Part shown: one piece after another, positions 32,361-53,517 of the stretch | Layout: every line of letters begins with the position of its first letter | How positions within the stretch are numbered: the stretch's first letter is position 1 | NCBI RefSeq assembly: GCF_003814835.1 | Contig: NZ_RKRG01000001.1 | Location: 434,001 to 498,000 of the forward strand | Length of the DNA: 64,000 nt | Direction: 5' to 3' | DNA from: Methanobrevibacter gottschalkii DSM 11977 | Lineage (GTDB): Archaea; Methanobacteriota; Methanobacteria; Methanobacteriales; Methanobacteriaceae | Notes under the pieces: generated by a model | Told to the model about the DNA's origin: nothing | Database searches by the model: none | The model's input: the letters and a program-made list of their open reading frames with translations, nothing else | Program-made: the position numbers and the translations under genes

Positions 32361-32434
32361 CGGACCTGGAGGGATTTGAACCCTCGATCTCAGGATCCGA
32401 AGTCCTGCGTCATTCCTGACTAGACTACAGGCCC
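32361..32434 (-). tRNA. tRNA-Arg (anticodon TCG)
   Basis: 74 bases folding as a normal cloverleaf on the minus strand. The acceptor GGGCCTG pairs with CAGGTCC with one G-T pair, discriminator G. The anticodon stem CAGGA/TCCTG encloses loop CTTCGGA with anticodon TCG (reads CGA, and CGN by wobble). The T arm is GAGGG-TTCAAAT-CCCTC. CCA is not encoded and no intron is seen. Its 3' end abuts the helicase stop codon with no spacer. Confidence 0.95.
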
Positions 32435-50279: not shown

Positions 50280-50308
50280 TAAAAAAAGAGAATAGCCCAA
50301 AACTATTC
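50280..50308 (-). terminator. terminator of the rpl21e-rpoF unit
   Basis: On the minus strand GAATAG-TTTTGGG-CTATTC (50308 to 50290) followed by TCTTTTTTTATT. The rpoF stop codon (50303-50305) lies in the first arm. Confidence 0.7.
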
Positions 50309-50656
50309 TTCAATATTGTATTGTTCTAAGAGTTCAAGTATCTTTTCCATATCGGGTTTTTCAATTTTTATAGCTTCTTTAGCGAAGATTAATCTTAAAT
50401 CTGCTAAATCTTTTGGAACTAAATCTACGATACGTACAGCAACTTTATCTCTTAGGCCAAATTCTTCTTGGAGTTTTTCAATAATTTCTTCTGAATCTTC
50501 AACAGAATATCTTTTAAATCTTGCAAGATGATTTAAAGTAATATTCTGTTCGTAGTTTAATTCATTGTCTTCTGAAAAATCTTCAAGAACTTTTTTTACT
50601 TCTGCACTTGATATTGGTTCACTTTCAATAATTTCTTTTCCAATCATAGAAATCAT
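50303..50656 (-). CDS. rpoF: DNA-directed RNA polymerase subunit F (Rpb4-like)
   Basis: 117 residues. Forms the stalk of archaeal RNA polymerase with subunit E. All-helical; [23 protein letters not shown] at the N terminus, [22 protein letters not shown] in the middle and the C-terminal [20 protein letters not shown] match Rpb4/RpoF. Its first ATG overlaps the TGA of rpl21e (ATGA). A second ATG 9 bases on, giving MIGKEI, is an equally good start. The rpl21e-rpoF pair is conserved in Euryarchaeota. Confidence 0.95.
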
Positions 50657-50943
50657 TTTTGTAATTTTAAATGGTCTGGTCTTACAATTAATTCTTTTGC
50701 TTTGTTTCCTTCTTTTAAGGATACAATATATGCTTTACCTTTTTGACCAGTAACCTTTCCAGTTTTACCATGGAATCTAGGAGCCGGTTGTCCTTTTTGA
50801 ATACTTGGGTTGATAGTAATATGAACTAAATCTCCATCTTCAAACCTTTGCATTCTGTTAGTAATAGGATTGGTTCTACCTGGTCTTTGGGTTTTTGTCA
50901 TTTTTTTTCTTGATCTACTTTTTAATCCTCTTGATCTTTGCAT
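50653..50943 (-). CDS. rpl21e: 50S ribosomal protein L21e
   Basis: 96 residues, highly basic. [20 protein letters not shown] at the start, then a beta-rich SH3-like part with [30 protein letters not shown] and [24 protein letters not shown], diagnostic of eL21. Ribosome site AGAGGTTATATT on the minus strand. It heads a unit with rpoF and is preceded by a leader with two inverted repeats (50985-51036 and 51054-51077). Confidence 0.97.
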
Positions 50944-50984
50944 AATATAACCTCTTATAAACTGTCTGGGTATATTTGATTAAT

Positions 50985-51036
50985 CTATGTTATCAGCTAC
51001 CTAGTATTAAATTGCCCATAAATACTAGTAACATAG
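50985..51036 (-). promoter_or_regulatory. structured leader hairpin before rpl21e
   Basis: Nested inverted repeat: CTATGTTA (50985-50992) pairs with TAACATAG (51029-51036), and CTAGTATT (51001-51008) with AATACTAG (51021-51028), giving 16 base pairs with an 8-base bulge (50993-51000) and a 12-base loop. It lies between the probable TATA element near 51107 and the rpl21e start, so it should be in the mRNA leader. Confidence 0.5.
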
Positions 51037-51053
51037 AATGTGAAAATAATTTA

Positions 51054-51077
51054 ATTATCACTCAGTAACATGATAAT
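51054..51077 (-). promoter_or_regulatory. second dyad before rpl21e
   Basis: ATTATCA (51054-51060) and TGATAAT (51071-51077) around CTCAGTAACA. It lies close to the predicted transcription start (TATA-like GTATATTAA near 51100-51110 on the minus strand), so it may be an operator or the first leader hairpin. AGTAACAT occurs here and again at 51027-51034 inside the larger hairpin. Confidence 0.4.
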
Positions 51078-51178
51078 ATTATAATTTTGGTTTATGCTAT
51101 TAATATACTTTTAGTTTTTTAGCATTTATTGAAATTTATAATAAAAATTTTTTAAATAGGGTTTTATGGTTTTAAAAA

Positions 51179-51210
51179 TGGTGTGTGAAGATAACCAATT
51201 AGTTATCTTC
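51179..51210 (-). terminator. hairpin at the nrdD 3' end
   Basis: GAAGATAAC (51187-51195) and GTTATCTTC (51202-51210) enclose the nrdD stop codon at 51199-51201. On the minus strand it is followed by ACACACCATTTTTAAAA. Confidence 0.6.
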
Positions 51211-53517
51211 AAATCTTCTTCTGTCAATTAATTCTTGACGTTTACCTGGGTTCCATCCGCCAGATGCAGATTTTGCACGTCCAACTTGTTGTACGTATCC
51301 TGTAATTCTATCATACCATTCTACATCTTCTTTTTCACCGCAGGTAGGACAAACATTGTTTAATCCTTTCATTAAAGTTTTACATTTAAGACAGAAACTT
51401 AATGCTGAGCTGTAAGCCCAGAATCCTATATCGGATTTTTTAGCAATTTTATTAGTTAAACTCATTAAAGAATCAGGATCAGAGTATGATTCACCCATGA
51501 ATGCATGGAAGATATGTCCGCCAGGTGTTATACTGTGATATTGTTCTTCAATTTTGATTTTTTCGATAAGTGAAAGTCCTGTGTCTACCGGTACATGGGA
51601 AGAGTTAGTGTAGTAGTTTGCATTTCCTTCACCTTGAACGATAGCTTGATCTCCATATTGTTTTTTATCAAGAGTTGCGAATCTGTAAGCAGTAGATTCA
51701 GCAGGAGTTTGAATAACAGACCATCTGAGTCCAGTTTCATCTTTTAATTGATTAGCTCTATCATTAATATATTCAATGCATTTTACTCCAAATTTGTTTG
51801 CATCAGCATTTTCAATACCTGCACCAAATAATGATGATAACATTTCGTTAAGTCCAACGAAACCAAATGATAAAGTTGAATTTTGGATTCTGTAGTATGA
51901 ATCTTCAGCTACTTGTTGTTTTAAGAAGGGTAAGATATGGAAATCATTTAAACATTTTAATCCTTGTTCTCTTCTAAGCATTAAAGTTTCAACCGCAAGA
52001 TCCATGTATTCATCTAAATATTCGAATACTTGACTTTCATCTTTAGATTGGTATCCTATTCTTGGTAAGTTTAAAGTAACATATGCAAGGTTACCAGTTC
52101 TTAAACAGTCTTGATCCCAGTCACCAGTCCAAGTATCTTGTAAACAAGTTCTACATCCCATGTAGTTTGCCATGTTTCCTCTGTATTTAGGGAACATATT
52201 TACAAAGTAGGAAGAACCATATTTTGCAGATAATTCATGAACTAATCTAATATCCTCTTCGTATTCACTAGTCATTGTTTCTTTACGGAGGGTGTAAATT
52301 GTGTTAGGGAATAAATGAGGTTTTCCTTCGTTATCTCCTTCTAATAATGTTTCAGTGAATGCTCTTTGAATTAATCTGGTTTCTTCTTCGAAGTCAGCAT
52401 AGGTTCCAACTACTTGTCCTTTTGGTCCGTATGCAGTTTCTTCTTTTAAGAAGTCCGGAACACCAAATTCTAATGCCATACTTGTGAATGGAACTTGTGA
52501 TCCTCTTGCTGCATATGCCATGTTTAAGTTGTAAACAAGCATTTGTACTGATTGTTTGATTTCTTCGTAGGTTCTTCCTCTTGCAAATGGTGCTACAAAT
52601 ACGTTCCAAAGTGACATTCCTTGTCCTCCGGACATATTTTGTTGTGCTGCAAGCATGATTTCGCCAGTGTGGTTCATTAAAGTTTCCATGTGGTTTGGTG
52701 CTCCTGCAATGGAAGTGTGGTCACCAGTACCGTCTACTTTAAGTCCGTATTTGATGAAAGTTCTAATGTCGTGTTGCATACAGTTTAAAGGTCTGCCTGC
52801 AAAGAATTCTAAATCATGAATGTGAATATCGCCAGACATGTGTGCATCTGCTAAATGTGCAGGGAGCATTTTTAAAAGTGCATATTGTTTTAATGCTTCA
52901 TCTGCAACATGTTTGTGGATACTTTCAGGATTGTGAATCATGTTTGCGTTATCCCTGTTACCGTTTTCAATTAAATTTGTAATGTTGTATACAGGAATAC
53001 CTAAACGAGTGTAACGACTTCTTAAATCTTCTAATCCATATTCTACTAATTTAGTGTTAACAATTTCTCTGATCATTGGAGCAGTTAAGTATTCTACATT
53101 TAATTTTTTCAGTTCTTTCCAAGTTTCAGTTGCAATTTCGAATGCAGTTTCTTGGCTTGCTCCAGTTTCTTCAATTAAAGTGTTTGCAATTTTTGATAAG
53201 TCAAATGCTTCAATAGTATCTCTAGAAGTACGTACTTTTAATCTGGTACTTGCTAAATATTTGTTTGCAATTTCAGAATCAATGTCTTCTAAACATTCAT
53301 GCACTATTTTTTTGATTTCTTTAGTTTTGATTCCGTCGTATAATTGTGATACTACTGTTGCTACAATTTTGTCGGATTCAAAAAATGGAGTTTCAACCAT
53401 TACTAATGATTTCAATAACTTTTCATAGCTGAACCTTTCTTTAATCCCGTTATTTTTTTCTACATTAATTTTTGTAGATTCATGTAAATTTTTTCCTAAT
53501 TCTGAAGTTCTTTCCAT
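51199..53517 (-). CDS. nrdD: anaerobic ribonucleoside-triphosphate reductase (class III)
   Basis: 772 residues. Makes dNTPs with a glycyl radical; destroyed by oxygen. The N-terminal ATP-cone (NGIKERFSYEKLLKSL to IKKIVHECLEDID, about 25-95) gives allosteric control. The catalytic barrel includes GDIHIHDLEFFAGRPLNCMQHD, NMSGGQGMSLWNVFVAPFARG and MGCRTCL. Near the C terminus, CLKCKTLMKG and CPTCGEKE form the zinc site and RITGYVQQVG carries the radical glycine. The activase NrdG is not adjacent. The upstream region has a TTCG/CGAA dyad and an 18-bp element shared with RPA and helicase promoters. Confidence 0.97.
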   Translation of the reverse strand: MERTSELGKNLHESTKINVEKNNGIKERFSYEKLLKSLVMVETPFFESDKIVATVVSQLYDGIKTKEIKKIVHECLEDIDSEIANKYLASTRLKVRTSRDTIEAFDLSKIANTLIEETGASQETAFEIATETWKELKKLNVEYLTAPMIREIVNTKLVEYGLEDLRSRYTRLGIPVYNITNLIENGNRDNANMIHNPESIHKHVADEALKQYALLKMLPAHLADAHMSGDIHIHDLEFFAGRPLNCMQHDIRTFIKYGLKVDGTGDHTSIAGAPNHMETLMNHTGEIMLAAQQNMSGGQGMSLWNVFVAPFARGRTYEEIKQSVQMLVYNLNMAYAARGSQVPFTSMALEFGVPDFLKEETAYGPKGQVVGTYADFEEETRLIQRAFTETLLEGDNEGKPHLFPNTIYTLRKETMTSEYEEDIRLVHELSAKYGSSYFVNMFPKYRGNMANYMGCRTCLQDTWTGDWDQDCLRTGNLAYVTLNLPRIGYQSKDESQVFEYLDEYMDLAVETLMLRREQGLKCLNDFHILPFLKQQVAEDSYYRIQNSTLSFGFVGLNEMLSSLFGAGIENADANKFGVKCIEYINDRANQLKDETGLRWSVIQTPAESTAYRFATLDKKQYGDQAIVQGEGNANYYTNSSHVPVDTGLSLIEKIKIEEQYHSITPGGHIFHAFMGESYSDPDSLMSLTNKIAKKSDIGFWAYSSALSFCLKCKTLMKGLNNVCPTCGEKEDVEWYDRITGYVQQVGRAKSASGGWNPGKRQELIDRRRFEDN

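Follow-up and report, generated by a model that had tools for sequence, protein, structure and literature searches.

Feedback control by a structured mRNA leader has seldom been described in archaea, and the leader of the rpl21e-rpoF operon considered here is probably a switch of this kind. The 2020 survey of ribosomal leaders by Eckert and Weinberg lists, in the sections consulted, four archaeal leaders, those of eL15 (Euryarchaeota), S15 (two leaders, in Halobacteria and Methanomicrobia), and L4 (Archaeoglobi), and describes a pattern in which different lineages carry different leaders before one ribosomal gene (PMC7247131). The rpl21e element is like these leaders in being structured, covarying, limited to a lineage, and placed before a ribosomal-protein gene, and it is set apart from them by its protein and by the RNA polymerase subunit in its operon. 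In the autoregulation of archaeal L7Ae through a k-turn, a ribosomal protein likewise controls translation via structure in the 5′ leader (PMC5539422, PMC6298567); the leader described here, in contrast, has an 8/0 bulge without the k-turn layout, and the gene that it precedes is rpl21e. The bacterial S4 leader (rpsD, rpoA, rplQ) is similar in that one leader precedes genes for a ribosomal protein as well as an RNA polymerase subunit (PMC7247131), although its proteins are others, it belongs to another domain of life, and homology is not claimed.

The terms “L21e”, “eL21”, and “rpoF” are absent from the main text of the 2020 survey (PMC7247131). A literature search, which covered mainly open-access journal papers, revealed no published L21e leader, and no literature was found on L21e, rpoF, and archaea together. 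Five archaeal candidates are reported, without names, in the consulted part of a human-microbiome survey (PMC8040213), and the element may be among them as an earlier, unlabeled listing. On the best reading, the leader element is new. ARRPOF was considered as an archaeal rpoF motif and rejected, as it is a Fusobacterium plasmid RNA. No Rfam 15 family matched over the element at gathering score in the window, that is, in the 64,000-nt stretch of the Methanobrevibacter gottschalkii DSM 11977 genome that was analyzed (positions 434,001 to 498,000 of contig NZ_RKRG01000001.1). A search of the leader at E up to 10 gave two weak matches, neither of them over the hairpin, and five related loci gave no Rfam match. 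A tRNA gene (32361-32434) was the only Rfam match at gathering score within the window.

Both genes of the operon lie on the minus strand. The rpl21e ORF (50653..50943, with its start at 50943 in the ORF list) encodes ribosomal protein L21e/eL21 and scores over the cut-off for Pfam PF01157 (Ribosomal_L21e); it is presumed to be the regulated gene, and its product is the likeliest ligand. Its end is overlapped by the ORF at 50303..50656 (start 50656), which we take to be rpoF (RNA polymerase subunit F), as it was named in the earlier note, and which is presumed to be co-regulated. In a set of 127 loci, with three genomes included twice, 107 have rpoF behind rpl21e and the remaining 20 end fewer than 250 bases downstream; the two genes are thus adjacent in 107 of the 107 loci where this is visible. 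Their aligned ends lie -1 to 15 nt apart in 106 loci and 35 nt apart in one, which is close enough for one leader to serve both genes, and the consistent abutment makes their joint control by one leader plausible, as judged from gene order. Upstream, on the same strand, lies a gene of 772 aa (51199-53517), presumably an anaerobic ribonucleotide reductase. It was found in 40 of the 127 loci (same strand in 40/40), 239-1063 nt before rpl21e, a distance of which many of the loci end short.

A predicted BRE and TATA box occupy 51100..51119 of the minus strand, with TATATTAA at 51107-51100, in agreement with the probable TATA box that the earlier note had placed near 51107. In 58 leaders, positions 51119-51100 show 91-100% identity per position, compared to 35-70% in the 52 positions upstream, and conservation stays high in the leader downstream. 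This rise, kept through the leader, fits the transcription start near 51080 that would be predicted from the TATA box, which would give a leader of ~135 nt. At the opposite end, the Shine-Dalgarno core GAGG (50951..50954, minus strand) stands 7-9 nt before the ATG and 11-18 nt after an ACCCAG motif in 62/62 leaders, and the end of ACCCAG is separated from the start codon by 22-31 nt, again in all 62.

The minus-strand leader (~51080-50944) was found to contain a large hairpin of 17 bp and a small hairpin near its predicted 5′ end. The small hairpin, P0 (51054..51077), is formed by pairing of 51077-51071 with 51060-51054, near the predicted transcription start. The large hairpin consists of two stems, P1 (9 bp) and P2 (8 bp). 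As placed by the covariation alignment, P1 pairs the 5′ arm UCUAUGUUA (51029..51037) with the 3′ arm UAACAUAGA (50984..50992), and P2 pairs CUAGUAUU (51021..51028) with AAUACUAG (51001..51008), all on the minus strand. A one-sided 8-nt bulge, GUAGCUGA (DNA GTAGCTGA; 51000-50993), separates the two 3′ arms, and the hairpin loop (51009..51020) begins with an invariant UAUGGGC (51020-51014), followed by a variable, mostly U/A run. Two inverted repeats between the TATA box and the rpl21e start had been noticed earlier, and both are present. The larger one, counted then as 16 bp with an 8-base bulge, has the helix and the bulge, and comes to 17 bp when the outer U-A pair is counted. The word said to be common to both repeats, AGTAACAT, does occur at 51027-51034 and at 51064-51071, but most relatives have ATATCACT in place of the upstream copy. 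For lack of conservation it was rejected as a repeated binding word, and the repeat looks coincidental.

The hairpin was compared among relatives using one rpl21e locus from each of 62 genomes of the genus. The full core was present in 60 of these, and merging of identical cores left 46 distinct sequences; the two left out were L025, in which the P1 5′ arm is lost, and L036, which lies at a contig end. The pattern by which cores were collected itself required ACCCAG, TAGTA, and parts of P1, and it missed only these two of the 62 leaders, both of which retain ACCCAG. A long alignment was made without L036 and L048. In the 46 distinct sequences, 99.8% of the pair cells of P1/P2 were found to be standard pairs (99.5% of cells paired in P1 and 100% in P2), whereas control structures slid along the alignment paired in 24-48% of cells. 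Four pairs changed on both sides (11 cells in all), three of them among the nine pairs of P1 and one among the eight of P2, the latter adjoining the length-variable loop, and 12 further pair types were observed. None of 500 shuffles, which ignore relatedness, reached the observed value on any of five covariation measures, and at least 23 pair-state changes, seven of them at one pair, were counted on a quick FastTree tree of the coding DNA. The two-sided changes per pair are few, and the two G-U cells at the pair closing the loop are alignment-dependent. The earlier note had looked to compensatory changes in the stems for support and to a lack of pairing conservation for refutation; the former were found and the latter was not. 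That the rpl21e leader contains a real, conserved RNA structure is practically certain.

The one-sided changes are also informative. At six pairs (15 cells), an A on the sense strand has been replaced by G while its partner U is unchanged, and the exceptions to this wobble pattern, one C-A and one A-A cell, both occur at the outermost pair. Such strand-biased G-U wobble changes indicate an RNA read from the rpl21e strand, because a DNA site should not favor one strand. In alignment A1, columns 5 and 64, which flank P1, are correlated without base pairing (35 TT, 5 CC, 4 CT, and 2 AT) and show ten changes on the tree; this U-U/C-C correlation may be due to chance.

Folding calculations gave a more mixed picture. 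The isolated large hairpin had a z-score of -2.55, with 3 of 200 shuffles equally stable. When the 142-nt leader was put through 600 dinucleotide shuffles, a helix of this length (17 Watson-Crick pairs, interrupted by no more than a single one-sided bulge of 8 nt or less) arose twice. The leader as a whole was not more stable than chance (z = -0.36, with 72/200 shuffles as good; z = -0.52 and 65/200 in a second run). Since whole-leader stability is near chance, stability alone is weak evidence, and the comparative evidence decides. For P0, a 6-pair stem starting at TTATCA is possible in 56 of 60 relatives and a 5-pair stem in one, and TTATCA is absent from the stretch read in three; this test accepted G-U pairing and loops from 3 to 23 nt long, and the stem has alternative registers. 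The evidence for P0 thus appears to be mostly sequence conservation, not covariation.

The distribution of the element was mapped with R1, a covariance model of the core. Among 67 genomes of the genus, source genome included, R1 matched before rpl21e in 61, comprising 60 full cores and a truncated one in G051. Across the phylum, 61 of 151 genomes matched, all of them in the genus, and 0/84 elsewhere, in a search whose stricter filters can lose weak matches. No match at E up to 1 was obtained in 62 rpl21e loci of 15 other genera, and a core common to several genera was therefore rejected. An extra strong match at a contig end in G045 is probably an assembly overlap, and four further matches of 18.4-21.9 bits (E 0.12-0.96) were taken as chance. 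Among the six genomes missed by R1, G019 has a sequence that breaks off 34 nt upstream of the start codon, L21e was not matched at all in G032 and G043 and only as a short fragment in G046, and in G057 the L21e start is off the contig. G061 has an assembled rpl21e leader without the element (L207, about 1040-1203), and this leader, together with the truncated one of G051, indicates that the element is not kept everywhere in the genus. In G051 (L025/L209), P0 and the P1 5′ arm have been lost at a join, which leaves the promoter, the loop, the bulge, the tail, and most of P2; this join reflects either a deletion that arose naturally or a misassembly. Scanning the genome collection with a pattern strict enough to miss variants gave 44 stretches, two of them contigs of one assembly (RUG12316). 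Forty-three of the 44 lie in Methanobrevibacter records (including M. millerae and M. thaueri), and one lies in a record named only “archaeon”.

Outside P1 and P2, 18 positions never vary in the 46 distinct sequences. They make up UAUGGGC in the loop, GCUGA in the last five bases of the bulge, which reads [G/A][U/C/G][A/C]GCUGA in 46/46, and ACCCAG in the tail behind the hairpin (50966..50971, minus strand). The spacers beside them do vary, that preceding CCCA measuring 5-15 nt and the 3′ portion of the loop 4-8 nt. Three invariant patches within variable sequence resemble a binding site, and loop, bulge, and tail together look like a candidate for one. The loop UGGG (51018-51015) is complementary to CCCA of the tail (50970-50967), upstream of the Shine-Dalgarno sequence, and the two could form a pseudoknot. 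This pairing is put forward because both words, short and mutually complementary, stay invariant while the sequence around them varies; its four pairs, all invariant, contribute no covariation. Because the linker behind P1 can shrink to 5 nt, the pseudoknot would require a bend in the helix, for which the bulge is a plausible site. The leaders showed no conserved strand able to pair with the Shine-Dalgarno sequence. Sequestration of the latter by the P1 3′ arm (AUAAC with GUUAU) was rejected, as this pairing is broken by GAGGTAAT in 20/62 leaders, and a switch helix GUUAC/GUAGC was rejected as well, its pairing being broken by C at the third bulge position in 18 of the 46 sequences.

The preferred reading, to which about an even chance is given, is that of a lineage-specific, cis-acting ribosomal-protein leader that is bound by L21e and controls rpl21e together with the abutting rpoF, with both the ligand and the off-switch as its inferred parts. 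The RNA folds into P1-bulge-P2, as the covariation demonstrates, and the conserved bulge would probably let the helix bend, such that the loop UGGG pairs with the CCCA behind P1. When in excess over 23S rRNA, L21e would bind the invariant loop, bulge, and tail, and the fold, locked in this way 11-18 nt ahead of the Shine-Dalgarno sequence, would impede the 30S subunit. Translation of rpl21e would then fall, with that of rpoF following. The constant spacing of ACCCAG from GAGG would bring a locked pseudoknot close enough to hinder the 30S subunit, and the off-state is assumed to be steric because no conserved pairing to the Shine-Dalgarno sequence was found. A more specific version, held somewhat more tentatively, is that L21e senses its own excess via the bulge-hinged loop-tail pseudoknot, throttles itself and RpoF, and thereby ties ribosome supply to polymerase supply, sister genera having replaced the leader with unrelated structures. 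The leader offers covariation support and clear candidate contact bases in Methanobrevibacter, a genus of gut methanogens, and could reveal how the supply of a ribosomal component is matched to that of an RNA polymerase subunit in archaea.

Ribosomal leaders commonly, though not necessarily, resemble the rRNA site of their protein. Such a resemblance was scanned for in L203 alone of four rRNA loci, a flanked, partial 23S rRNA sequence (469 N) from another genus; a search of six genomes of the window's own genus yielded no 23S rRNA. The best R1 match in L203 scored 11.6 bits (E 0.14) and lay in the 3′ flank, and the next had an E of 2.2. No clear resemblance was seen in the readable part of this partly masked sequence from another genus, in which 16 shared 8-mers were counted, most of them in the flank, compared to 8-9 in mononucleotide shuffles.

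Other explanations can be offered for the same structure. The leader might merely stabilize the mRNA or keep the ribosome site open, with P0 and P1-P2 protecting the 5′ end of a highly expressed transcript and no ligand involved. The location of P0 near the predicted 5′ end, its possible formation in most relatives, and the failure to see a conserved anti-Shine-Dalgarno strand are all consistent with this; a stabilizer, however, would have no need for loop, bulge, and tail to keep 18 positions invariant, and this explanation is considered unlikely. Those invariant bases could instead belong to a small-molecule riboswitch, in which loop, bulge, and tail build a pseudoknotted pocket for a metabolite reporting growth or nucleotide supply. 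Some translational riboswitches are compact, with invariant unpaired bases and a pseudoknot near the Shine-Dalgarno sequence, and the rpl21e element has a compact fold, invariant unpaired bases, and a possible pseudoknot at a similar place. However, every strong match stands before rpl21e-rpoF and none before a metabolic or transport gene, the element is confined to one genus, and no Rfam riboswitch lies over it, such that a riboswitch appears improbable.

A protein ligand other than L21e, namely RpoF (with RpoE), L7Ae, or another RNA-binding protein, has barely better prospects than a metabolite. The RpoE/F stalk binds RNA, and rpoF follows in every visible locus; the leader, however, stands directly before rpl21e. 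In a canonical k-turn, the site of L7Ae, a bulge of 3 nt adjoins tandem sheared G-A pairs to which both strands contribute. This layout was rejected for the rpl21e element, as the 5′ strand runs from P1 straight into P2, with no unpaired base opposite the bulge in any of the 46 aligned sequences, which also argues against L7Ae as the ligand. The inverted repeat could, finally, be a DNA operator, that is, a transcription-factor site downstream of the promoter. Its proximity to the promoter and the high similarity of the sequence in many species would suit such a site, but the compensatory changes, the strand bias of the wobble changes, the presence of the 8-nt bulge in one arm only, and the invariance of bases in unpaired parts make an operator very improbable.

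Genera other than that of the window appear to carry different structures before rpl21e. In genus g9, the leader at the same place contains an outer stem, AAUAGCUA/UAGCUAUU, in which two pairs have changed in both partners, a second hairpin with the loop UGAUGGG, and an invariant UAAACCGAAGGGCU. The g9 set comprised 15 leaders, 14 of them distinct (L081, L082, L084, L085, L087, L088, L091-L094, L096, L097, L105, L115, and L120). Shuffles reached the five observed measures in 13, 1, 1, 425, and 0 of 500 cases, and slid versions of the structure gave 0-1 two-sided pairs; the case for a covarying leader structure of its own in g9 is suggestive, not firm. The letters AUGGG recur in the g9 loop, and no conserved partner was found there by eye. 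The different g9 leader matches the lineage-bound distribution described for ribosomal leaders in the consulted sections of the 2020 survey (PMC7247131), and rpl21e is likely another ribosomal gene that is preceded by different RNA structures in sister genera. A third layout, with an RNAalifold energy of -45.9 from five sequences only, was seen in genera g4, g15, and g16 (L077, L106, L107, L109, and L111), and places a small G+C-rich hairpin next to the Shine-Dalgarno sequence.
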